NCBI GenBank assembly: GCA_903870175.1
Contig: CAIQBY010000392.1
Location: forward strand, 1 to 36,797
Direction of reading: 5' to 3'
Length of the DNA: 36,797 bases
Source: an uncultured Bacteroidota bacterium
GTDB taxonomy: Bacteria; Bacteroidota; Bacteroidia; 2-12-FULL-35-15
Shown here: one piece after another, positions 26,901 through 36,797 of the stretch
Numbering within the stretch: position 1 is the stretch's first letter
Layout of the letters: every line of letters starts with the position of its first letter
Notes under the pieces: model-generated
Seen by the model: only the letters and a program-made list of their open reading frames with translations
The model's database searches: none
Told to the model about the DNA's origin: nothing
Translations under genes and position numbers: made by a program

Positions 26901-27081
26901 GATTAGCGATAATGGAATTGGATTGCCAGAAAATCTTGATTTTAGAAATACGGAGTCTCTCGGATTGCAATTAGTTGTAACTTTGGTCGATCAATTAAAT
27001 GGAGATATTCAAATTGATAATTCAATAGGAACGAAATACACAATAATATTTAAACAAAATCAAATTAAAAATCGAATATAA
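23998..27081 (+). CDS. six-PAS sensor histidine kinase (HisKA_2 type)
   Basis: A 1027-residue kinase with no signal peptide or TM segment, so cytoplasmic. After an N-terminal coiled coil (~10-40) come six PAS domains starting near residues 42, 159, 287, 436, 561 and 690, several ending in the D-I-(T/S)-E PAC signature (AVRDITELKES, FIADISEKKKYE, VMHDISSKKQL, VSRDISESKKAE, VFQDITERRKAE, IGHDITEKIVA). The transmitter has H830/H831 in LLKEVHHRVKNNLQVISS, then the ATPase motifs ELISNAIKYAF, ISDNGIGLPE and ESLGLQLV, as in the HisKA_2 / LytS-side kinases. AAGGGG precedes the ATG. The partner is surely the LytTR regulator one base downstream. Confidence 0.93.
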   Translation: MAISKKTNLKVETEVKKLQKQIDLLKKENAKTKAALKISEQKFKNLYESGFEGIVIHKNGVILEVNNAICKKVGYTPKQIIGEPVFKFIHPEYHAKVLEKIKTKDASPYEIIMLQKGKKQFWAQLLASEIDYNGLPARVTAVRDITELKESENRILESERKFSVLSNNFPCIAYRCKMDKNFTMEFLSDNFFELTGYNPKDFINNKKFAFNDIVHPEDRANPILSKAVKQKKTYDIEYRLISINNEIKWVWEKGQGVFDSKGKLLYLEGFIADISEKKKYELELKRTRENYKSLIDNSPDGIIIYVDGKVEFVNKAALKLLESKPEQVITRHRTFYLLPEYHQFAAERMEKLFKGEIVPYAEFKMKTAKGKIIEVESKPTLVTYDGKDATLVVMHDISSKKQLLKEQVRAQYAEEANQQLQFEINERKKAERIIESNQKYTGLLIESSLDIICATDRKGNIIEFNTAAQETFGYKREEIIGKHVKILYANPKERTNITEKELIGKGIYIGEVTNIKKSGEQFISFLSASVLKNEEGEIVGAMGVSRDISESKKAEQELKDSEERYRAIFNQAYIGIAKIDLKGKFIQVNQQLCDMLGYSNEELCRMNFVDLTSTEDMELSKKYWNKFVSGKLEKATFEKKYLHKNLQLIYANLTISLVRDTSGKPSHFITVFQDITERRKAEKEQQVQAAKLNSIFESGAHLIWTADRNSCLTSYNQNFKIFIKQQYKVEIYLGISMMEGQMISTQELNSYWKNKYDLTLAGIPQYFETKFINDIGREIWYEIFLNPIFGENGEVVEISAIGHDITEKIVANEKIHQSLQEKEVLLKEVHHRVKNNLQVISSILNLQSSYAKDKNTLNILKESQNRIKSMAFIHESLYQTKDFSNINFSEYIINLSRNLINTYSDLEYEIKLKLDIQPIMLNLDLAIPSGLIINELISNAIKYAFNDVYKENIIAIVMHSEEEYLKLVISDNGIGLPENLDFRNTESLGLQLVVTLVDQLNGDIQIDNSIGTKYTIIFKQNQIKNRI

Positions 27082-27082
27082 A

Positions 27083-27835
27083 ATGTCAAAAACAAACATT
27101 CTTATTGTTGAAGATGAAAGCATAGTAGCTAAAGACATCCAACACAGTTTAAAAAAACTTGGATACACTGTTGTAGATATCTGTTCCAATGGTGAAGATG
27201 CAATTAGAATTGCAGAAGAGTTAAAACCAAATTTAATATTAATGGATATTATGTTAAAAGGTGATATGAGCGGGATCGAAGCTGCAAGCCAGATTCGCGA
27301 AAAATATAATATTCCAATAATTTATCTCACTGCTTATGCTGATGAAAGTACGTTAAGTAAAGCAAAAGTTTCAGAACCTTATGGATATATAATTAAACCT
27401 TTCAAAGAAATTGATTTGCATACTTCTATTGAAATGGCAATTTATAAACATGAAAAAGAAACCGATTTAAAAAAAGAAAGAGATTTTTTATATTCAATAG
27501 TTGAAAATAAATCATCGAAAGATCTCATATTTGTTAAATCAAATTCACGCCTTGTAAAAGTAAAAACAAAAGATATCTACTTTGTTGAAGCATTAAAAGA
27601 TTATGTAGTAATAAATACTGCGAGTGCAAGATATACAATACATTCAACTATGAAAGATATTGAAAAGAAATTATCTTCTTCTGATTTTATTCGTGTTCAT
27701 CGTTCATTTATTGTACGCATTGATAAGATTGTTGCAATTGAACAGCCGAACCTGATAATGGAGGATGATAAAAAACTTATTCCAATAGGAGGTTCCTATA
27801 AGGAAGAGTTATCGAGAAGATTAAATACGATGTAA
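27083..27835 (+). CDS. LytTR-family response regulator
   Basis: A 250-residue DNA-binding regulator. The receiver domain (1-~120) shows acidic residues E10-D11, the phosphoacceptor D55 in LILMDIML, the conserved Thr/Ala switch in YLTAYAD and Lys in GYIIKPFKE. A helical linker leads to a LytTR DNA-binding domain (~150-250; DIYFVEALKDYVVI, FIRVHRSFIVRID). The ATG follows the kinase stop by one base, so the two are translationally coupled and form one two-component system. A hairpin terminator begins six bases past its stop. Confidence 0.95.
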   Translation: MSKTNILIVEDESIVAKDIQHSLKKLGYTVVDICSNGEDAIRIAEELKPNLILMDIMLKGDMSGIEAASQIREKYNIPIIYLTAYADESTLSKAKVSEPYGYIIKPFKEIDLHTSIEMAIYKHEKETDLKKERDFLYSIVENKSSKDLIFVKSNSRLVKVKTKDIYFVEALKDYVVINTASARYTIHSTMKDIEKKLSSSDFIRVHRSFIVRIDKIVAIEQPNLIMEDDKKLIPIGGSYKEELSRRLNTM

Positions 27836-27840
27836 AAAGA

Positions 27841-27899
27841 TTAATGATGAGAGGGGTTATATTTCGAATCCCCACTCATCATTAAATTTTTTATTTTTT
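27841..27899 (+). terminator. terminator overlapping the 3' end of rnr
   Basis: TTAATGATGAGAGGGGTT (27841-27858) pairs with AATCCCCACTCATCATTAA (27867-27885) with an 8-base loop and one mismatch, followed on the plus strand by a T-rich run (TTTTTTATTTTTT). It ends the kinase/LytTR operon. The right arm lies inside the last codons of rnr. Read on the minus strand the hairpin is followed by TCTTTTTAC, so it may act both ways. Confidence 0.8.
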
Positions 27900-30151
27900 G
27901 TAGAAGTATTGTGAGGTTTATTTACTTTGGAATCCTTTACAATATTTTCAGACTTTTTGGAAGCAGAATCCTTACTCTTCTTTTCTTCAATAATTTCTAC
28001 CAAAGCAAAATCAAGTTGTTTCTTTATAAGGTCAGCGCGCTTTATTTCTATTCTTACCTTATCACCAAGTGTCAATACTTTCCCGTATTTTCGGCCTCTT
28101 AAACAATAGTTATCTTCATCAAAATAAAAGTTGTCATCACGCAAATCTCTGGTACGAATCATTCCTTCGCAATGATTATCGACAAGCTCGACAAAGATTC
28201 CCCATTCAGTAACACCGGATATAATTCCGTCAAACTCCTGTCCTATTTTATCTGATAGATATTGAACCTGCTTATATTTTATGGATGAACGTTCAGCATC
28301 GGCAGCAAGTTTTTCCATGTCGGAAGAATGTTTGCACTGTTCTTCCAATTTATCAATATCCGGATTTTTACCACCATCCAGATAATGTTGTAATAAACGA
28401 TGAACCATTACATCGGGGTAACGCCTTATTGGGGATGTGAAATGTGTATAATATTCAAAGCCTAACCCATAGTGACCAATGTTTTTTGTAGTATAAATTG
28501 CTTTCGCCATTGTGCGGATAGCAAGCATTTCAATCATTCCTGATTCTTTTTTCTGATTAACTTCTTTCAATAAATTATTCATTGAATCAGCAACCATTCT
28601 TTCGTTTTTAATATTCAATTTATAACCAAACTTAGCAACAAATTCAGCAAAGCTATTTAGTTTATCAGGATTGGGCTTGTCGTGAACTCTATAAACAAAA
28701 GGTTTTTGAGACTCTACGTTTCTTACTTTTGATTCTTTGCTTTCTTTTTTCTTCCCAACAAATTCAGCAACTTTTCTATTTGCCAATAACATAAAATCCT
28801 CAATCAGCTGATTTGAATCTTTAGCTACTTTAAAAAACACTCCGGTAGGATTGCCCACTTCATCCAAATGAAATTTAACTTCCATTTTTTCAAATGCGAT
28901 ACTGCCTTTTTTAAATCTGTTGGCACGTAATATTTTCGCCAATCTATTAAGTGTAAGTATTTCTTTTTTAAAATCTCCTTCCTCAGTTTCTATTACCTGT
29001 TGGGCTTCTTCATAAGTAAATCGTCTGCCGGAATTAATAATTGTTCTTCCAAACCATTCACCAATAACCTCTGCATCATCGGTCATTTCGAATACTGCCG
29101 AGAAACATAACTTTTCTTCGTGAGGCCGAAGTGAACAAACATTATTTGATAATATTTCAGGTAACATTGGTACAACTCTATCTACTAAATAAACTGAGGT
29201 TGCTCTTGAAACAGCCTCTTTGTCAATCATTGATTCAGGTTTCACATAATAACTTACATCGGCAATGTGAACTCCTATTTCCCAATTACCATTCGATAAT
29301 TTTTGAATTGATAAGGCATCATCAAAATCTTTTGCATCAACAGGGTCAATTGTGAAAGTTGTAATTGCCCTGAAATCGCGCCTTTTAGCAATTTCTTCTT
29401 CCGTTATTTTAATCGGAATTAAATCGGCAGCACGTTCAACATCCTTTGGGAACTCATAAGGCAAGCCATATTCAGCAAGTATAGCGTGCATTTCTGTATT
29501 GTTTTCTCCAACATTTCCCAATACATCAATTATTTCTCCGATAGGATTTACACCGTTTTTCGACCATTCAATAATCCTTGCAATTGCTTTCTGTCCGTCT
29601 TTTGCACCTTTCAATTTCTCTAAAGGAATATAAATATCCACATGAATTTTATTATTGCTCGGCACCAAAAAAGCAAAACGATTGGAAAGCTGAAGTGTTC
29701 CTACAAATTCGTTTTTCGCACGCTCGATTACTTCCACAATTTCACCTTCCTGCTTCCCTTTTCCTTTCGAATACAATTTTACTTTTACTATATCTCCGTG
29801 CAACGCATTCAATGTTTTCTTCGGATTCACAACAATATCATTTTCGCTTTCTTCGGAAACAATATATGCTGTTCCCGAATTTGTCATATCCACTTTGCCG
29901 GAAATAAAGGACTCCGTTAATTTTATTTTGAATTTACCGCGCTCAGGTTCCGAAACGGAGTCTGCATTTTTTAATTCCGATAGAACAGAAGAAATGAGCA
30001 TCCTCTGCCCATAATCAGTAATTTTTAATTCTGAAGCAATTTGCTTATAATTTAAAGCTTTATTCGGATTCGCAGAAAGCACTTTAATAATTTCTTCAAA
30101 AAGATAATTCTTTTTAATGCCTTTGTTTTTACTGTTGAATTTTTTAGCCAT
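27857..30151 (-). CDS. rnr: ribonuclease R
   Basis: A 3'-to-5' exoribonuclease of the RNB family that degrades structured RNA. Visible: an N-terminal winged-helix (~18-75; ALNYKQIASELKI), cold-shock/OB-like domains (~75-240), the catalytic RNB domain with FTIDPVDAKDFDDALS (the four-Asp metal centre), HIADVSYYV, VYLVDRVVPMLPEILSN and the later YTHFTSPIRRYPDVMVHRLL, then a C-terminal S1 domain (FDGIISGVTEWGIFVEL). A Lys/Ser-rich tail follows, typical of RNase R. Length 764 aa is normal. ATG at 30151. Divergent from the first sigma gene with array 3 between them. Confidence 0.95.
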   Translation of the reverse strand: MAKKFNSKNKGIKKNYLFEEIIKVLSANPNKALNYKQIASELKITDYGQRMLISSVLSELKNADSVSEPERGKFKIKLTESFISGKVDMTNSGTAYIVSEESENDIVVNPKKTLNALHGDIVKVKLYSKGKGKQEGEIVEVIERAKNEFVGTLQLSNRFAFLVPSNNKIHVDIYIPLEKLKGAKDGQKAIARIIEWSKNGVNPIGEIIDVLGNVGENNTEMHAILAEYGLPYEFPKDVERAADLIPIKITEEEIAKRRDFRAITTFTIDPVDAKDFDDALSIQKLSNGNWEIGVHIADVSYYVKPESMIDKEAVSRATSVYLVDRVVPMLPEILSNNVCSLRPHEEKLCFSAVFEMTDDAEVIGEWFGRTIINSGRRFTYEEAQQVIETEEGDFKKEILTLNRLAKILRANRFKKGSIAFEKMEVKFHLDEVGNPTGVFFKVAKDSNQLIEDFMLLANRKVAEFVGKKKESKESKVRNVESQKPFVYRVHDKPNPDKLNSFAEFVAKFGYKLNIKNERMVADSMNNLLKEVNQKKESGMIEMLAIRTMAKAIYTTKNIGHYGLGFEYYTHFTSPIRRYPDVMVHRLLQHYLDGGKNPDIDKLEEQCKHSSDMEKLAADAERSSIKYKQVQYLSDKIGQEFDGIISGVTEWGIFVELVDNHCEGMIRTRDLRDDNFYFDEDNYCLRGRKYGKVLTLGDKVRIEIKRADLIKKQLDFALVEIIEEKKSKDSASKKSENIVKDSKVNKPHNTSTKNKKFNDEWGFEI

Positions 30152-30258
30152 AGTTCAAAGATGCATTTGTTTTTTGAGACGGAGAAGGTTTTGTTGATAT
30201 TTTTCAAAAGTATTATTTGGTTTTCGAGCAAAATAGTTGGCAAAAGGAGGAGATTAGT

Positions 30259-30432
30259 GGACCCACTAAGCTACTTTCTTGGTCCACTAATTCAATTAGT
30301 GGGTCCAAAAAATGATTTCCTGGACCTATTAATCCGATTTCTGGTTCCATTAATTCAATTAGTGGGACCAGAAATCCAATTAGTGGACCCAGAAAGAGAC
30401 TTCTTGGGTCTGGAAAACTCTTTGTTTGGTCC
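30259..30432. repeat. 21-bp periodic array 3 (core TGG-A/T-CCA)
   Basis: Nine cores related to TGGwCCA, some with one extra G or C, are centred near 30261, 30283, 30304, 30324, 30345, 30367, 30387, 30409 and 30430, i.e. every ~21 bases (20-22). The central A or T sets orientation; in order it reads A, T, T, A, T, A, A, T, T. The eighth copy is degenerate (GGGTCTGG). Some spacers are themselves inverted: CCACTAATT and AATTAGTGG flank one base near 30284-30302, and CCATTAATT / AATTAGTGG recur near 30347-30365, so hairpins between neighbouring cores are possible. Confidence 0.88.
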
Positions 30433-30599
30433 AGAAAGTTGCTTGTGTTTTCGAATTTTATGTATTTATATTGCTGCAATATTTATATTTTATCAGTTGA
30501 AAGCCAAGTAAAATGTTAAATTTGCTACCTTAACAAAAGATTTATTTTGTAAATTAAAAAGTAAACAAACGTTAAATTATAAATTAATTGTACATTAGT

Positions 30600-30628
30600 G
30601 CAACCAAATTGAGAGATTTTGCATCTTA
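30600..30628 (+). promoter_or_regulatory. candidate ECF-type promoter of the first sigma gene
   Basis: GCAACC (30600-30605), 15 bases, GCATCTTA (30621-30628). The same layout (GCAACC-N15-GTATTATA) precedes the second sigma gene. An AAC-containing -35 and a 15-16 base spacer are usual for ECF promoters, so autoregulation is inferred. The predicted start would be about 8-10 bases before the ATG at 30643. Confidence 0.45.
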
Positions 30629-30642
30629 CCAATAATATATAT

Positions 30643-31173
30643 ATGACCGATGAGCAGATAGTGCAAGGGTGCATTAACAAAAACCCTATTGCTCAACAGC
30701 GATTGTATGATAAGTTCTCGAAAAAAATGATGGGTGTTTGTTTGCGTTATTGCGATAGTAAAGATGAGGGGGAGGATGTACTGCAAAATGGTTTTATAAA
30801 TGTTTTTGAAAATATCAAGACATTTAAGGGGGCTGGTTCTTTAGAAGGTTGGATTCGCAAAATAGTTGTTAATACAGCGTTGACAAATTTAAGAAGGAAC
30901 AAAAAATTAAAACAAAATGTGGAATTGGAAAGTGTAGAATTCTCGCTTGAAGACACAACTAATTATGGTGACAATTACGGAGCAAAAGAATTATTAAAGA
31001 TAATACAAACATTGCCAATAGGATTTAGGACAGTTTTCAACTTACATGCAATAGAAGGATACAATCATAAAGAAATAGGAGAAATGTTAGGCATTACAGA
31101 AGGAACATCAAAGTCGCAATATTCACGGGCAAAAATACATTTACAGAAATTAATACCAATAGATAGACAATAA
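30643..31173 (+). CDS. ECF sigma-70 factor
   Basis: A 176-residue sigma factor of the extracytoplasmic-function group. Region 2 is seen in LYDKFSKKMMGVCLRYC, EGEDVLQNGFINVFENI and SLEGWIRKIVVNTAL; region 4 in IIQTLPIGFRTVFNLHAI, GYNHKEIGEMLGITEGTSKSQ and the recognition helix YSRAKIHLQKL. The EGTSKSQ signature is typical of Bacteroidota ECF sigma factors. The frame opens at a TTG (30619) that overlaps the candidate promoter; the ATG at 30643 gives the normal MTDEQIVQGC start. The next gene starts three bases after its stop and encodes the presumed anti-sigma partner. Confidence 0.93.
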   Translation: MTDEQIVQGCINKNPIAQQRLYDKFSKKMMGVCLRYCDSKDEGEDVLQNGFINVFENIKTFKGAGSLEGWIRKIVVNTALTNLRRNKKLKQNVELESVEFSLEDTTNYGDNYGAKELLKIIQTLPIGFRTVFNLHAIEGYNHKEIGEMLGITEGTSKSQYSRAKIHLQKLIPIDRQ

Positions 31174-31176
31174 TTT

Positions 31177-32199
31177 ATGACAAAGAAAAGCATTGAAGAT
31201 TTGTTCAAAGATTCTTTCGAGGATTTTGAAGAGGAAGTAAGCCCGACAGTTTGGGAGAACATAAAGACCGGGCTGAAGGGGGCAGGATTGGGACTTCTCG
31301 GAAAAACCCTGATCAATAAAATTGGAACCAACACATTAATTGCGGTGGTTTCATCTGCAGTTACTGTTATTGCTACTGTTTCGGTAATGAACTGGACAGG
31401 TAATGCAGTGAAAAAATCAGGCGATGAAAGTAAGGCTAAAGCGGTAGTTAACGAAAAGCAAAATCCTCCGGCAACGATTGAAAATAAAACCATCAGTCAG
31501 CCTGTTGCTGAAGCAAAAAAGGAAGAAACTGATTTACCAATTGCAAAAGAAAACATGGTAAAATCTGAAGATAAATCGGCGAATGGAGAACAGGATATGC
31601 AGGAAACAAAAATACTTGTTAAGCCATTCCATAAAGACAAAAAGGAAATCCAAAAAGTAATTAAATCTTTTTCGGAAATACAAATAGCTTCTATATTTGC
31701 CAGTCCGGTTGGAGGTACAGTTCCTTTGATTGTAAACCTTTCGAATAGCGGAAATGGTAAAACAAATAAATGGAAATACAGTGATGGGAAAAAAGAAGAT
31801 AATATTCCTAATCCGGTTCATGTGTTTGAAACCCCTGGAACTTTTACAATTACTCTTACTTCAACTGATGAAAATGGGAAAACAAGTGTTGATACTAAAG
31901 AAATTGAGGTTACCGGCAATTCATCTATGATGGCAACACCAAGAGAATTAACGCCAAATGGTGACGGAATTAATGATGTTTTCTCTTTCAATGGAAAGAA
32001 TCTTGTGAAAATGAGCGGACAAATATTTGACAGCAAAGGAAACATTATTTTTGAATGCGATAAAGTTGGTGCCAAGTGGGATGGAAAGACCAGGAATGGA
32101 GAAGATGCTAAAGAAGGTACTTATTTTTATCTGGAAAGTGCTGATGGAAAAGATGGTAAACATTATGAACAGCATGGTTCAATTCATCTTACTCGTTAA
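31177..32199 (+). CDS. single-pass membrane protein with PKD and gliding-motility-type C-terminal domain; presumed anti-sigma partner
   Basis: A 340-residue protein. Residues 1-50 are an acidic then amphipathic cytoplasmic head (IEDLFKDSFEDFEEEVSPTVWENIK), 51-73 one TM helix (TLIAVVSSAVTVIATVSVM), 75-165 a charged Lys/Glu linker, 171-248 a PKD domain (VPLIVNLSNSGNGKTNKWKYS, FETPGTFTITLTSTDENGK) and 252-340 a domain like the type B T9SS/gliding-motility C-terminal domain (LTPNGDGINDVFSFNG, AKWDGKTRNGEDAKEGTYFY). Its head matches that of the barrel protein at 34686, and both follow an ECF sigma gene. An anti-sigma role is inferred from this. There is no cleavable signal peptide, so the C-terminal domain is probably a fixed periplasmic or outer domain rather than an export signal. 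Confidence 0.82.
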   Translation: MTKKSIEDLFKDSFEDFEEEVSPTVWENIKTGLKGAGLGLLGKTLINKIGTNTLIAVVSSAVTVIATVSVMNWTGNAVKKSGDESKAKAVVNEKQNPPATIENKTISQPVAEAKKEETDLPIAKENMVKSEDKSANGEQDMQETKILVKPFHKDKKEIQKVIKSFSEIQIASIFASPVGGTVPLIVNLSNSGNGKTNKWKYSDGKKEDNIPNPVHVFETPGTFTITLTSTDENGKTSVDTKEIEVTGNSSMMATPRELTPNGDGINDVFSFNGKNLVKMSGQIFDSKGNIIFECDKVGAKWDGKTRNGEDAKEGTYFYLESADGKDGKHYEQHGSIHLTR

Positions 32200-32225
32200 G
32201 ATTTTATAATCTAATTCTAATAAAA

Positions 32226-32261
32226 TAAAAAGGGCTCAGTAAATATACTGAGCCCTTTTTA
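32226..32261 (+). terminator. terminator of the first sigma/anti-sigma pair
   Basis: AGGGCTCAGTA (32231-32241) and TACTGAGCCCT (32046 offset: 32246-32256) form a perfect 11-base stem with a 4-base loop, flanked by A5 and T5, 27 bases past the stop of the membrane partner. The symmetric A and T runs would let it work in both directions. Confidence 0.9.
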
Positions 32262-32490
32262 TTTTAGTTAATTCATTCTTTAATAGAAAAAAGAGCAAAC
32301 AATAATAAAGGAATCATTCGAACTATTAAACTTCAGGAATTTTATGCTTCAATCTCTTGTAATATTGATTAACCAAGGCTTCATCCAATAAGTTATTTTC
32401 TTTTTTTCATGAAGAAGGTCTCTGATGAATTATAGAACCTTAAAGAAAATAATCATAGAGATGCACGCATTTAATATTTTAATTGCCTGT

Positions 32491-32525
32491 AAAAAAAGGG
32501 TTCAGTATTAATGCTGAACCCTTTT
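32491..32525 (-). terminator. terminator of the secreted PKD protein gene
   Basis: GGGTTCAG (32498-32505) and CTGAACCC (32514-32521) form a stem with an 8-base loop, flanked by A7 and T4. On the minus strand it lies 20 bases past the stop and is followed by seven T. Confidence 0.88.
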
Positions 32526-32544
32526 AAGATTAATTAAACAATCT

Positions 32545-33960
32545 TTATTTAGTAATAATCAGCTTTCTTGTGATTGTATTGCTGTCAGTTTTTAACTGTA
32601 ACAAATAAATACCGGAAGCAATGGAAGAAGCATCAAAATCTATGTTGTGTGAACCTGATGTTTTATTTCCACTTTCAATCAATTGAACTCTATTGCCTAA
32701 CAAATCAAGAAGGCGAACTTCAATGTTTGAATTTTGCTGAAGAGAATAAGAAATTGTTGTTGAACGCGAAAATGGATTAGGATAATTTTTCAGGGACTCA
32801 GTAAATTCTTTTTGTTCGATAATACCAACAGTAGCAGGATTTACAACGCTAAGGGTTGTAGTCTGTGCAGTATTATGCCCCGGAACAATAGTGTCGCAGT
32901 GAGTAGCTGTACATATTACACCCATGGAATCGCCGGACGTAATTGTCAAACATAAATTATATGGACCGCTGCCAACAGTATATGTATGTTGAGGATAAGG
33001 TAAAGTGGAGGATATTCCATCGCCAAAATCCCATAAATAAGAAGTTATTAAATATCCATTTCCGCTTGAATAATTATAAACCCAATAATTATATATATTA
33101 ACAGTATCATGAATAACAGTAAAGTTAGCGCTGCAAGGAGTATTTGCAGGTTGTCCCGGACTTACGTATTGACAAGTAGTAGAAGAACAGGTAGAATCGG
33201 TACTGGAAGTAACTGTTAAACATACACTATAACTTGCAGCTGCCCCATAAACGTGGTGAGTATTTGCCGAACTTGCCTGTGTTCCATCACCGAAATCCCA
33301 ATGATAAGTGTCGGCAGTTCCTGTAACTGAAGATATGAATGACACTCCGTTTCCTGTTGAATCATTTACAAAACTAAAATTGCCGCTGCAGGTTGCAGGT
33401 GCTTGCACATATATAGAATCGCAGGATGTATTACTGCATCCGTAGGAAGGATTTGAAATTGTAAGGCAGATAGTATAATGCCCGGGAGCATTGTAGTTAT
33501 GGCTAAAATTTGCTGCCGAAGCACTGTCTTGTGTACCATCACCATACTGCCAGAAATAATGTAAGCCGGTACCTGAAGATGAATTATAAATATTTACCAG
33601 TCCTCCGCCATTTAATGTATCTACATAAGTTGAGAATGATGCAGTACAACCGGGAGGTGTATTATTTATTACTGTAATCGAATCGCAGAAAGTGCAGGTG
33701 AGTAAGCCATTAGTATCAGAAGCGGTGAGGCATACATACCAGGTTCCTGTGGCAAAGGTATATGTTATGTTAGACCCATATCCAGATGTTCCGTTATTGA
33801 AATTCCAGTAATAGGAAAAGTTGGCAGTAGGAGTAACTGAAAAAGCTACCGTTCCATCATTAGCCGGATTTACAGTATAAGTAAAAGTGGCGGCGCATTG
33901 TGCTTTAATTGAAGTAACGCCAATTAAAGCAATTAATAAAGTTGTGAATAATTTTTTCAT
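32545..33960 (-). CDS. secreted PKD-repeat protein with type A T9SS sorting domain
   Basis: A 471-residue exported protein. Signal peptide MKKLFTTLLIALIGVTSIKAQ; then four PKD domains (~22-375), each with the core YxWxFGDG or near variant (YYWNFNNGTSGYG, YFWQYGDGTQDS, YHWDFGDGTQAS, YLWDFGDGISST) and a YxVCLT(V/I) strand, with paired cysteines in most domains; then the type A sorting domain (~387-471; LKNYPNPFSRSTTISY, EVRLLDLLGNRVQL, LASGIYLLQL-like strand, TRKLIITK). It is divergent from the second ECF sigma gene and shares an inverted repeat with it, so it may belong to that regulon. No enzymatic domain is seen; adhesion or matrix function is inferred. Confidence 0.93.
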   Translation of the reverse strand: MKKLFTTLLIALIGVTSIKAQCAATFTYTVNPANDGTVAFSVTPTANFSYYWNFNNGTSGYGSNITYTFATGTWYVCLTASDTNGLLTCTFCDSITVINNTPPGCTASFSTYVDTLNGGGLVNIYNSSSGTGLHYFWQYGDGTQDSASAANFSHNYNAPGHYTICLTISNPSYGCSNTSCDSIYVQAPATCSGNFSFVNDSTGNGVSFISSVTGTADTYHWDFGDGTQASSANTHHVYGAAASYSVCLTVTSSTDSTCSSTTCQYVSPGQPANTPCSANFTVIHDTVNIYNYWVYNYSSGNGYLITSYLWDFGDGISSTLPYPQHTYTVGSGPYNLCLTITSGDSMGVICTATHCDTIVPGHNTAQTTTLSVVNPATVGIIEQKEFTESLKNYPNPFSRSTTISYSLQQNSNIEVRLLDLLGNRVQLIESGNKTSGSHNIDFDASSIASGIYLLQLKTDSNTITRKLIITK

Positions 33961-34001
33961 TTGTATTAAATTTTAAAGTTATTAATTAATATTTTGTTTA
34001 C

Positions 34002-34101
34002 TTAATAACTTGGTTTTGCAAAATGGTTGCCTGAGAAATAAAAATATATTTGTAAAAGTAATAAAATTTCAGGCAACCTTTTAAAGATTTTATGTATTAT
34101 A
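34002..34101. promoter_or_regulatory. back-to-back candidate ECF promoters on a 10-bp inverted repeat
   Basis: GGTTGCCTGA (34025-34034) and TCAGGCAACC (34069-34078) are perfect inverted repeats 34 bases apart. On the plus strand GCAACC (34073-34078), 15 bases, GTATTATA (34094-34101) precedes the sigma gene. On the minus strand GCAACC (34030-34025), 15 bases, GTTATTAA (34009-34002) precedes the secreted PKD gene. Each would give a leader of roughly 30-35 bases. The plus copy resembles the promoter candidate of the first sigma gene. Alternatively the inverted repeat is an operator. Confidence 0.45.
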
Positions 34102-34138
34102 GTTGGAAGTAAGAATAGATTTTTGTTAGTTTAGTTAT

Positions 34139-34696
34139 ATGAATGGAGATTGGCAACTGATAGAAAGCTGTAAACATAACGATTCCGCCGCATTTGAGAA
34201 GCTTTATAAAAAATACGCTTCGAAAATGAAGGGAGTGGCATATCGCTATGTGAACGATTTTGCAATTGCTGAAGATATTTTGCAGGAAGCTTTTATAAAA
34301 GTGTTTGTCAATTTAAAAACATTTGATAACTCCGGTTCTTTTGAGGGCTGGCTAAGGAGAGTGGTCGTGAACTCATCAATTAATTATTTTCATTCATTAA
34401 AAAAGCAAAGCGAAAACATTTCGGATTTGGGATATCTTTTGGAGAATGATTTGAATGATGAAGGTGATGACGAAGAGTATGATTATTCGATGGAAGAACT
34501 GGTTGACTCTATATCCATGTTGCCGGAAGGATATAAAATGGTGTTCAATATGTATGTGGTAGATAATTTTACCCATAAAGAAATTGCAGCAGCATTAAAT
34601 ATTACTGAAGGCACTTCAAAATCGCAACTTTCGAAAGCAAGAGAATATTTAAAAAGAATGTTGGAAAAACAAAAAATGGTTTCTAATGGAAGATAA
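34139..34696 (+). CDS. ECF sigma-70 factor
   Basis: A 185-residue ECF sigma factor. Region 2: LYKKYASKMKGVAYRYVND, AEDILQEAFIKVFVNL and SFEGWLRRVVVNSSINY. An acidic insert (NDLNDEGDDEEYDYSM) lies between regions 2 and 4. Region 4: SISMLPEGYKMVFNMYVVD, FTHKEIAAALNITEGTSKSQ and LSKAREYLKRM. It is clearly a paralog of the sigma factor at 30643. Its 3' end overlaps the next gene by 11 bases (34686-34696), which points to translational coupling and fits a sigma/anti-sigma pair. Confidence 0.94.
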   Translation: MNGDWQLIESCKHNDSAAFEKLYKKYASKMKGVAYRYVNDFAIAEDILQEAFIKVFVNLKTFDNSGSFEGWLRRVVVNSSINYFHSLKKQSENISDLGYLLENDLNDEGDDEEYDYSMEELVDSISMLPEGYKMVFNMYVVDNFTHKEIAAALNITEGTSKSQLSKAREYLKRMLEKQKMVSNGR

Positions 34697-36323
34697 AGAA
34701 AAGAAGTTTGATGAAATGTTCCGGAAGCAGCTGGAAGAATTTAAGTTGCCGGTGTCAGACAAAGTGTTGGCTAATATAAAAGGCGAGTTAAGATTAACTG
34801 CACCAAAGAGCGCTTTTGGTCTTGGAAAATTATTATTGTCGATTGCGATTGTTGGCGGAGTGGCTGTGGCAGGATATTTTATGATTCATAAAAGCAATTC
34901 AACAATAAAATCAGAAACAAAAACTAAACAGGAATTGATCGCAGAGAACTCAAAGGAAAACAAAATAAACTCAACTGGAACACAAACAAAATTGGATGTA
35001 ATAAACACAAATTCAAACACCGCACAAACTACCGAAAAAAGAGCTGCAACTAATTCGGATGAAACCAAAACGAACTTGATAGGAACCCAAACCAATGCAA
35101 GCGGAACAATAAATAACTCAACAGGAAAACAAGCGAATTCAATTAGTACACAAAAGAATTCTAATGAAACGAAAACGGAGTCGGTAAAAACAAATGCGAA
35201 CTCAGTTAGCACGCAAAAGAATTTGAACGAAACCAAATCAAGTTCAAAAGTAAATGCAAACAACTCTTCTGGAACGCCAACTAATTCTAATGAAACTAAA
35301 AGTAAGCCGAGTGAAATAAAATCAACTCCCACGGAATTAAATGCAAGCGGTAAAGAAACCGGTAATAGCAATATCTCTAATTCTTCGGCAGGAAATACGA
35401 ACAGGCAGACAAATAATACTAATTCGGATTCTTCTGTTTTATCAGCTTCAACTGCTATTGAGGATAAAAAGGAAGAGAAGAAAGAGCAGGTACAAACAAC
35501 TGATTCGAAAGAGGTGAAAACGGAAACTAAAAGGGATTCAGTAGAGAATAAACCATTGGTAAAAGCAGATTCGACAAAACCAAAAACACAGGCACCGCCA
35601 TTGATTGATGATAAATCGAAATCAGAAAAAAACACTCATTTGTTTGTTGGCATAAGCGGCGGAGTATCTGATGCTTTCCGCACTTTAAATGTCGGCAATA
35701 ATGCAGGTGCGCAGAACAGAACTCAGAATGAAAAATCGATTGTTACTTATAATTCAGGAATTGAAGTGGGTGCAACCATTAAAAACAAATTGATTGCAGC
35801 AGTTGGATTTCGCATAAGTAATTACGGTGAGAAATATAATTATAGCAATAGTTCCGTTAAAATAAGTACGAGGGATTCTACGTATCAGGATACGCTTGGA
35901 GTTATACATACCATTGTACTTGATACAATAAGAACACCGATAAAAAATAATTATACACTTCAAAATAATTATCAATTTTTGACTATCCCGATACTTATTG
36001 GTTATAAAATTAATATCGGCGATAAATGGTTTGTGGCTCCCTGCATTGGCGCTAATTTTAATTATCTGCTGCATGCCACTTCTGCGTGGTTTGATACCAA
36101 AACAGGCGAACAGATTAGTTATGTAAAAGCAACTAATTTTAATCAGTTTTCTTTTTCAGGAACTTTTAAACTGGAAGTAGGTATTAATATAAAAGAACGG
36201 TGGAGTGTGATTTTTCAGCCGGAATATACCCGCTGGTTTCAATCGATATACAAGAAAAGCGACGAAATAAAACTCTATCCTTATTCGTATAATTTTAATA
36301 TCGGTGTGAGGTATAAGTTTTAA
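34686..36323 (+). CDS. probable dual-membrane-spanning anti-sigma factor (cytoplasmic head, TM, disordered linker, outer-membrane barrel)
   Basis: A 545-residue protein. Residues 1-41 form a cytoplasmic head (FDEMFRKQLEEFKLPVS, DKVLANIK) similar to that of the partner of the other sigma factor. One TM helix spans ~45-66 (LGKLLLSIAIVGGVAVAGYF). Residues ~70-315 are a low-complexity Asn/Ser/Thr/Lys linker with degenerate repeats such as SNETK, NSVSTQKN and SGTPTNSNETK. From ~317 a beta-barrel of the PorT/outer-membrane type follows (HLFVGISGGVSD, FLTIPILIGYKI, WFVAPCIGANFNYLL, WSVIFQPEYTRWFQS) ending in YNFNIGVRYKF with the terminal Phe of outer-membrane proteins. The layout matches dual membrane-spanning anti-sigma (Dma) proteins described in Bacteroides. 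Anti-sigma activity is inferred from layout and the 11-base overlap with the sigma gene. Confidence 0.87.
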   Translation: MEDKEKKFDEMFRKQLEEFKLPVSDKVLANIKGELRLTAPKSAFGLGKLLLSIAIVGGVAVAGYFMIHKSNSTIKSETKTKQELIAENSKENKINSTGTQTKLDVINTNSNTAQTTEKRAATNSDETKTNLIGTQTNASGTINNSTGKQANSISTQKNSNETKTESVKTNANSVSTQKNLNETKSSSKVNANNSSGTPTNSNETKSKPSEIKSTPTELNASGKETGNSNISNSSAGNTNRQTNNTNSDSSVLSASTAIEDKKEEKKEQVQTTDSKEVKTETKRDSVENKPLVKADSTKPKTQAPPLIDDKSKSEKNTHLFVGISGGVSDAFRTLNVGNNAGAQNRTQNEKSIVTYNSGIEVGATIKNKLIAAVGFRISNYGEKYNYSNSSVKISTRDSTYQDTLGVIHTIVLDTIRTPIKNNYTLQNNYQFLTIPILIGYKINIGDKWFVAPCIGANFNYLLHATSAWFDTKTGEQISYVKATNFNQFSFSGTFKLEVGINIKERWSVIFQPEYTRWFQSIYKKSDEIKLYPYSYNFNIGVRYKF

Positions 36324-36399
36324 CCTGTAAACAATGTTTTATTCATAAGTTTTATTTATTGATGTAGTGCAACATCGGAATATCGTTTTCTTTGTAAGC

Positions 36400-36797
36400 A
36401 TGAATTACATCGACATTGTTATTTGTATTCCTCTGGTTTGGGGTTTGTACAAAGGATTCAGGAAAGGACTTATAATAGAAGCCGCTTCTCTGGTAGCTTT
36501 CGCGCTTGGTGTATGGGGCGGCATTCATTTCTCCGAATATATTGCGGGCAAAATAAAAGAATGGTTTCACTGGCAATCGCCCTATCTGCCTATTGTTTCG
36601 TTTGCAGTTACATTTCTTGGCATAATAATTATTGTTTATTTTATTGCGAAGATTATTCAGAAAATGGTGGAAGGTATGGCGCTTAGTGCGGTGAATAAAA
36701 TAGCAGGAGCAATATTCGGCGCACTTAAATTTGCAATGGTAATAAGTGTAATTATTTTTGTGATGGATGCCATCGAAAAATCATATCCTTTTATTTC
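36400..36797 (+). CDS. CvpA-family membrane protein, 5' part
   Basis: The window ends inside this gene; 132 codons are seen. It begins MNYIDIVICIPLVWGLYKGF, continues RKGLIIEAASLVAFALGVWGG and has further hydrophobic segments (VSFAVTFLGIIIIVYFIAKI, IAGAIFGALKFAMVISVIIF). Four TM helices and the early GxxKGFRKGLI pattern match the CvpA family, inner-membrane proteins linked to colicin V export in E. coli and, more broadly, envelope stress tolerance. It follows the barrel protein by 76 bases with no clear hairpin between, so it may be read from the same transcript. Confidence 0.9.
   Translation, partial: MNYIDIVICIPLVWGLYKGFRKGLIIEAASLVAFALGVWGGIHFSEYIAGKIKEWFHWQSPYLPIVSFAVTFLGIIIIVYFIAKIIQKMVEGMALSAVNKIAGAIFGALKFAMVISVIIFVMDAIEKSYPFI

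Follow-up and report, generated by a model that had tools for sequence, protein, structure and literature searches.

A putative membrane-anchored anti-sigma factor with a type-B T9SS C-terminal domain, and its candidate cargo regulon, in an uncultured Bacteroidota lineage

In the flagellar system secretion and gene expression are coupled through the sigma28 partner FlgM, a soluble anti-sigma factor that is itself exported. In Porphyromonas gingivalis, PorA, a protein with a C-terminal domain (CTD) of the type IX secretion system (T9SS), feeds into control of T9SS genes by the extracytoplasmic function (ECF) sigma factor SigP (PorXY-SigP; PMC7712824), and the Flavobacterium psychrophilum SM6 promoter set has ECF-type promoters at T9SS core genes and at an ECF/anti-sigma pair (PMC9723704). 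Here we describe a locus at positions 30643-32199 of a 36,797-nucleotide stretch of DNA from an uncultured Bacteroidota bacterium (contig CAIQBY010000392.1, forward strand; the whole stretch is termed the window below), in which an ECF sigma factor gene is followed directly by a gene for a putative anti-sigma factor ending in a type-B T9SS CTD-like domain. All results were obtained by sequence-level computation.

As in the PorXY-SigP/PorA system (PMC7712824), an ECF sigma factor is tied to T9SS genes and a CTD-bearing protein would act upstream of the signal, but PorA is a separate surface CTD protein whereas the CTD of the window protein is fused to a putative anti-sigma factor and the targets are cargo genes. 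The SM6 set resembles the window system in having ECF-type promoters before T9SS-related genes and before an ECF/anti-sigma pair and differs in that its targets are core parts (GldN, PorU and a PG0189-like outer-membrane protein) and in a CGT box within the -10 element (PMC9723704). Described type-B CTD cargo and PorP/SprF shuttles involve the same CTD family (PMC12618676, PMC9143113), and PKD/immunoglobulin (Ig) domains often precede the CTD in the cargo proteins encountered here; real type-B cargo carries a signal peptide and an RWG motif, whereas the window protein is predicted to be anchored by a transmembrane (TM) segment and no longer has the Arg-Trp pair. Only 6% of Bacteroidetes ECF sigma factors have class I anti-sigma partners (PMC7406223), so that most partners in this group lie outside that class. 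A literature search covering few subscription journals found, beyond PorA/SigP and SM6, no description of a CTD (CHU_C/type-IX tail) fused to an anti-sigma factor or of such a cargo regulon.

Domain order and conservation of the pair

The putative anti-sigma factor is a protein of 340 amino acids encoded at 31177-32199, its gene starting 3 nucleotides past the sigma gene stop codon. Pfam searches placed a PKD_4 domain at residues 182-245 (41.9 bits) and a CHU_C domain at residues 255-337 (56.7 bits against a cut-off of 27), and the NCBIfam model TIGR04131, 'T9SS type B sorting domain', matched with 40.4 bits against a cut-off of 35. Hydropathy analysis indicated a single strong hydrophobic segment at residues ~52-73. 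These data bear out the proposal of a first-pass annotation that a PKD domain and a type-B CTD are carried by a membrane-anchored sigma factor partner. A Sec signal peptide was not found at the N-terminus, where the stretch ahead of the hydrophobic segment, ~50 residues with many charges, exceeds the length expected of such a peptide, and no FecR, zinc-finger or RseA-type anti-sigma domain was matched in the protein (Pfam, E<=1). The AlphaFold model contained two confident beta domains at residues ~170-340 (predicted local distance difference test, pLDDT, ~90-95), with head, TM segment and linker at low confidence, and a fold search returned only generic tandem Ig folds, including those of many unrelated adhesins. 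The order of segments suggests a topology of cytosolic head, one TM helix and periplasmic part, with a head that may bind the sigma factor. The sigma protein itself matched Sigma70_r2 (46.3 bits) and Sigma70_r4_2 (49.7 bits) and no other large Pfam domain; ATG 30643 is its likely start, since TTG 30619 is itself part of the promoter's -10 element (promoter at 30599-30626).

The head is related to that of a group of barrel-type ECF partners including the sister protein encoded downstream in the window (sister pair at 34139-36323), with an hhalign probability of 98.8% (E 7.9e-17, 38 columns), consistent with the head pattern that the first-pass annotation had described as common to both partners. 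Unrelated heads, which that annotation had listed as a possible refutation, are thus not what the comparison shows. The sister pair also resembles the window pair in having its ECF gene directly upstream, and differs in a long barrel-type tail in place of the PKD-CTD part and in its promoter. This tail (34686-36323), described as a barrel in that annotation, gave no Pfam match. In other genomes the head profile additionally picked up ECF-linked proteins whose long tails are not of the CTD type.

A search of 59 relatives identified full-length orthologues across the genus with 44-76% identity, and the same domain order was present in other families (L065, L066, L067); the order of head, TM segment, PKD and CTD next to an ECF gene, for which a search across Bacteroidota had been suggested, is found both genus-wide and beyond. 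A profile built from the head only matched 77 of 296 genomes of the class, in 43 of 164 genera. Nearly all of these matches have an ECF gene immediately 5' and terminate with a CHU_C-type domain, with barrel-type tails among the weakest matches. Of 59 CTD-type members sampled, every one had a Pfam match to CHU_C and 36 had one to PKD. One contig scan for hosts returned only uncultured metagenome-assembled genomes and no cultured, named host. At one locus in another family (L065:1255-4369) two ECF/head-TM pairs lie one behind the other, first a pair of the CTD type and then a tail-less one.

Promoter motif and target genes

The motif TGCAACC-N15-GC[AG]TCT at 30599-30626 is the sole match in the window and was not found in any of 100 shuffles. 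Its position 5' of the sigma gene is conserved across genus orthologues and in several families, and the sigma factor may be autoregulated through this promoter. When genomes were scanned with spacers of 14-16 allowed, the motif recurred 3-14 times in most genomes of the genus, compared with 0-1 for a reversed-pattern control, and outside the genus recurrence in the same scan dropped to chance. The spacer was 15 in nearly all matches, and a TTT followed the -35 element though it had not been part of the search pattern. Sister ECF genes of the same genome are preceded by other elements (GGCAACC..TGTATTA, GGCAACC..ACGTCA and CCCAACC..TAATCT). For the promoter pattern of one sister, none of five genomes had more than one site; the site in the own genome is the sister's own promoter, and two further genomes of the five have a single site each.

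Type-B CTD genes, recognized with a profile built exclusively on secreted CTDs, lay downstream of 23 of the 71 non-self sites examined in the genus; 15 of these 23 targets were confirmed with Pfam, and two of the 23 sites (L202, L325) are weaker, being inside or near an open reading frame (ORF) of annotated length. Background was estimated from 231 type-B matches in five genomes (~20 Mb), which amounts to ~1.3% if a total of 18,000 genes is assumed. In the five genomes that were fully covered, 7 of 42 sites precede type-B genes (binomial p ~1e-6), and the association is not circular because the motif was derived from the sigma gene and not from cargo. Type-A cargo genes also occur near motif sites; with at least 150 such genes per genome no enrichment is claimed. 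Other recurrent targets were a membrane protein of ~130 amino acids, topA, YqeY, LytTR genes and ApaG. The window's own genome has few clear non-self targets: a type-B protein of 694 amino acids (C188), a small ORF (C143) and a membrane protein of ~133 amino acids (C276). Another two sites there (C259, C380), located inside genes, were taken as chance occurrences. The ~130-residue membrane protein, encoded in the own genome at L183:4558-4953 on the minus strand (C276), is a conserved promoter target (also L187, L192, L211, L222), with a DGPSLxN motif, a His-rich tail and no Pfam family.

In a second family (the genus of G050) 24 motif sites were present in seven genomes, with none in the control, and these precede topA in five of the seven (L270, L277, L278, L280, L283) as well as three type-B genes. 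The gene for DNA topoisomerase I, topA, carries the same ECF promoter in the window's genus (L194, L214) and in this family. The majority of sites in a third family belong to the sigma factor's own promoter. Another three, from three genomes, lie in front of genes for a single protein family that shares N-terminal homology with targets in the window's genus; two of these proteins end in CHU_C, and the remaining one runs off the contig end. The occurrence of the sigma promoter motif before type-B cargo genes in three families gives independent support to the earlier suggestion that the protein senses the secretion machinery, with contact to the T9SS itself a putative element of that suggestion.

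The C-terminal domain and surrounding features

To compare the CTDs, 84 from anti-sigma proteins were aligned with 29 from secreted type-B proteins (from the own genome and the regulon targets). The secreted CTDs carry a [ND]-R-[WYF]-G motif, with Arg in 28 of 29 and Trp in 23 of 29 sequences; among the anti-sigma CTDs Arg was present in 13 of 84 and Trp in none. P-N-G-D (TPNGDG), W-D-G and a C-terminal G-x-[IV]-x-L-x-R are retained in the anti-sigma CTDs of the genus. For the type-B CTD of F. johnsoniae SprB, each of five conserved motifs is reported to be needed for secretion (PMC12618676), and the Arg-Trp pair would presumably belong to one of the five. The anti-sigma CTD has probably kept the fold and lost export, and because a nearly invariant Arg-Trp pair has been lost these domains look like pseudo-export signals. 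Competition for the secretion machinery, also raised in the first-pass annotation, is rendered less likely by loss of this pair, which is typical of export-competent type-B CTDs. For automatic annotation, a CTD match by hidden Markov model alone does not amount to proof of secretion.

A free protein of 123 amino acids, consisting of a signal peptide and little beyond a CTD, is encoded in genome G026 (L331:2031-2402, minus strand). Its CTD is 58% identical to that of the window anti-sigma protein and likewise has no Arg-Trp pair, and it could be a soluble competitor; the TGCAACC promoter was not found upstream of its gene.

Coordinates of the locus are collected in Table 1. Adjoining the sigma pair, a gene at 32545-33960 on the minus strand encodes a protein of secreted type, in which four PKD matches and a T9SS tail of type A were recognized. 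Between an RNase R-like gene and the sigma gene, positions 30161-30511 contain repeated L-V-G-P/L-V-D-P-like units on both strands and are probably repeat DNA rather than a gene. Rfam gave no match within 27000-36797. Elsewhere in the same genome (C95; L006:1441-3201) a sister ECF gene and a gene for a head-TM partner of 227 amino acids with no folded tail are followed by a gene judged by eye to be PorP/SprF-like, a possible second link between ECF sigma factors and the T9SS.

Table 1. Features of the sigma/anti-sigma locus and of the sister pair, in window coordinates
Feature	Position	Strand	Basis or remark
ECF-type promoter TGCAACC-N15-GCATCT	30599..30626	+	5' of sigma gene; kept in genus orthologues and other families
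ECF sigma factor, 176 amino acids from ATG	30643..31173	+	Sigma70_r2/r4_2 (Pfam); TIGR02937 ECF superfamily
Putative anti-sigma head, residues ~1-50	31177..31326	+	Conserved head profile A1; akin to barrel-type partners
Predicted TM segment, residues ~52-74	31330..31398	+	Hydropathy peak 53-71; model helices 52-58 and 61-73 (low confidence)
Low-complexity, putatively periplasmic linker, residues ~75-168	31399..31680	+	Poor orthologue alignment; pLDDT < 50 up to residue 151
PKD domain, residues 178-245	31708..31911	+	PF18911/PF00801; ColH PKD matches in PDB
Type-B T9SS CTD-like domain without secreted-type Arg-Trp, residues 255-340	31939..32196	+	PF13585, TIGR04131
Sister ECF sigma and head-TM-long-tail pair	34139..36323	+	Promoter GGCAACC...TGTATTA; head homology

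A model of type-B transport sensing and its alternatives

The reading towards which we lean is that a membrane-anchored anti-sigma factor with a non-exported CTD mimic reads type-B traffic and tunes expression of the cargo. The gene at 31177-32199 would encode a single-pass inner-membrane anti-sigma factor whose cytosolic head keeps hold of the ECF sigma factor from the adjacent upstream gene, and whose periplasmic part combines a PKD spacer with a type-B CTD retained as a fold, that is, as a substrate mimic that is not exported. Recognition of the mimic by a handler of type-B cargo (shuttle, translocon or motor) would make its occupancy a measure of the current load on the type-B route. A change in occupancy would cross the membrane and free or hold the sigma factor, tuning the sigma/anti-sigma operon together with T9SS cargo, above all type-B CTD genes. 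The most plausible direction may be that spare transport capacity engages the mimic, so that the sigma factor is released and more cargo is made, and that congestion with cargo displaces the mimic and leaves the sigma factor held.

Several observations weigh against this reading. Type-B cargo lies behind just one of the non-self sites in the genome that contains the window, most genomes of the third family hold the self site alone, and topA, YqeY, LytTR and ApaG are targets with no obvious link to the T9SS. The pooled p-value for the genus is far smaller than that given above, but many targets are orthologous and independence is overstated. The anti-sigma CTD is no nearer to the CTDs of regulated cargo than to those of other cargo (27% versus 31% identity), leaving mimicry of specific regulated cargo unsupported. 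SprA occurs in 288 of the 296 genomes of the class, and co-occurrence with the T9SS has therefore no discriminating power. The one head-positive genome with no SprA match (G092; L133, L275) carries an ECF-head-CTD protein and a type-B cargo gene (L275); since it carries such cargo and the other sampled members of its genus have SprA, the missing match is probably an assembly gap.

The main rival, which we consider possible but rather unlikely, is that the PKD-CTD part serves as a general Ig-type module for a ligand or for envelope stress and has no T9SS contact. It might respond to misfolded proteins of beta-sandwich fold, to a glycan or to a protease, and the cargo genes would be surface genes caught up in the same stress response. 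Reuse of the domain as a ligand module had also been raised in the first-pass annotation. In favour of this rival are the loss of the export-typical Arg-Trp pair, the matches of the tandem Ig folds to many unrelated adhesins, and the presence of topA, YqeY and LytTR genes in the regulon; left unexplained is why a type-B CTD should be kept in 59 of 59 sampled members alongside a type-B-enriched regulon in three families.

Export in the manner of FlgM, with the PKD-CTD part released by proteolysis and exported through the T9SS so that export frees the sigma factor, is improbable. The CTD does exceed the cut-offs of TIGR04131 and PF13585, and the TPNGDG, WDG and GxIxLxR elements are still present in it, but the protein has no N-terminal signal peptide and the near-invariant Arg-Trp is missing (Trp in 0 of 84), when each conserved SprB CTD motif is reported to be needed for secretion (PMC12618676). 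By analogy the preferred reading, sensing of type-B transport by a tethered mimic, would share with FlgM/sigma28 the logic that a secretion-linked anti-sigma factor gates cargo genes; unlike FlgM, the window protein is predicted to be membrane-anchored, is of the ECF type and is probably not exported. That the 340-residue protein is an ordinary surface T9SS substrate lying by chance behind a sigma gene, as its CHU_C/TIGR04131 domain alone might suggest, is highly implausible given its conserved cytosolic-type head shared with other ECF partners, its internal TM segment from ~residue 52 and the near-universal ECF coupling.

How Bacteroidota adjust cargo production to what the T9SS can transport is an open question, the known PorXY-SigP route controlling machinery genes. 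The locus described here offers a direct candidate circuit for cargo, with one sigma factor, one CTD-bearing anti-sigma factor, one promoter motif and a short list of targets. Whether it represents a widespread Bacteroidota switch, in which a membrane-tethered T9SS pseudo-substrate joined to an anti-sigma head gauges type-B transport and adjusts how strongly type-B cargo is expressed, is for us an evenly balanced proposition; if true, it would constitute a secretion-coupled feedback switch for the T9SS.
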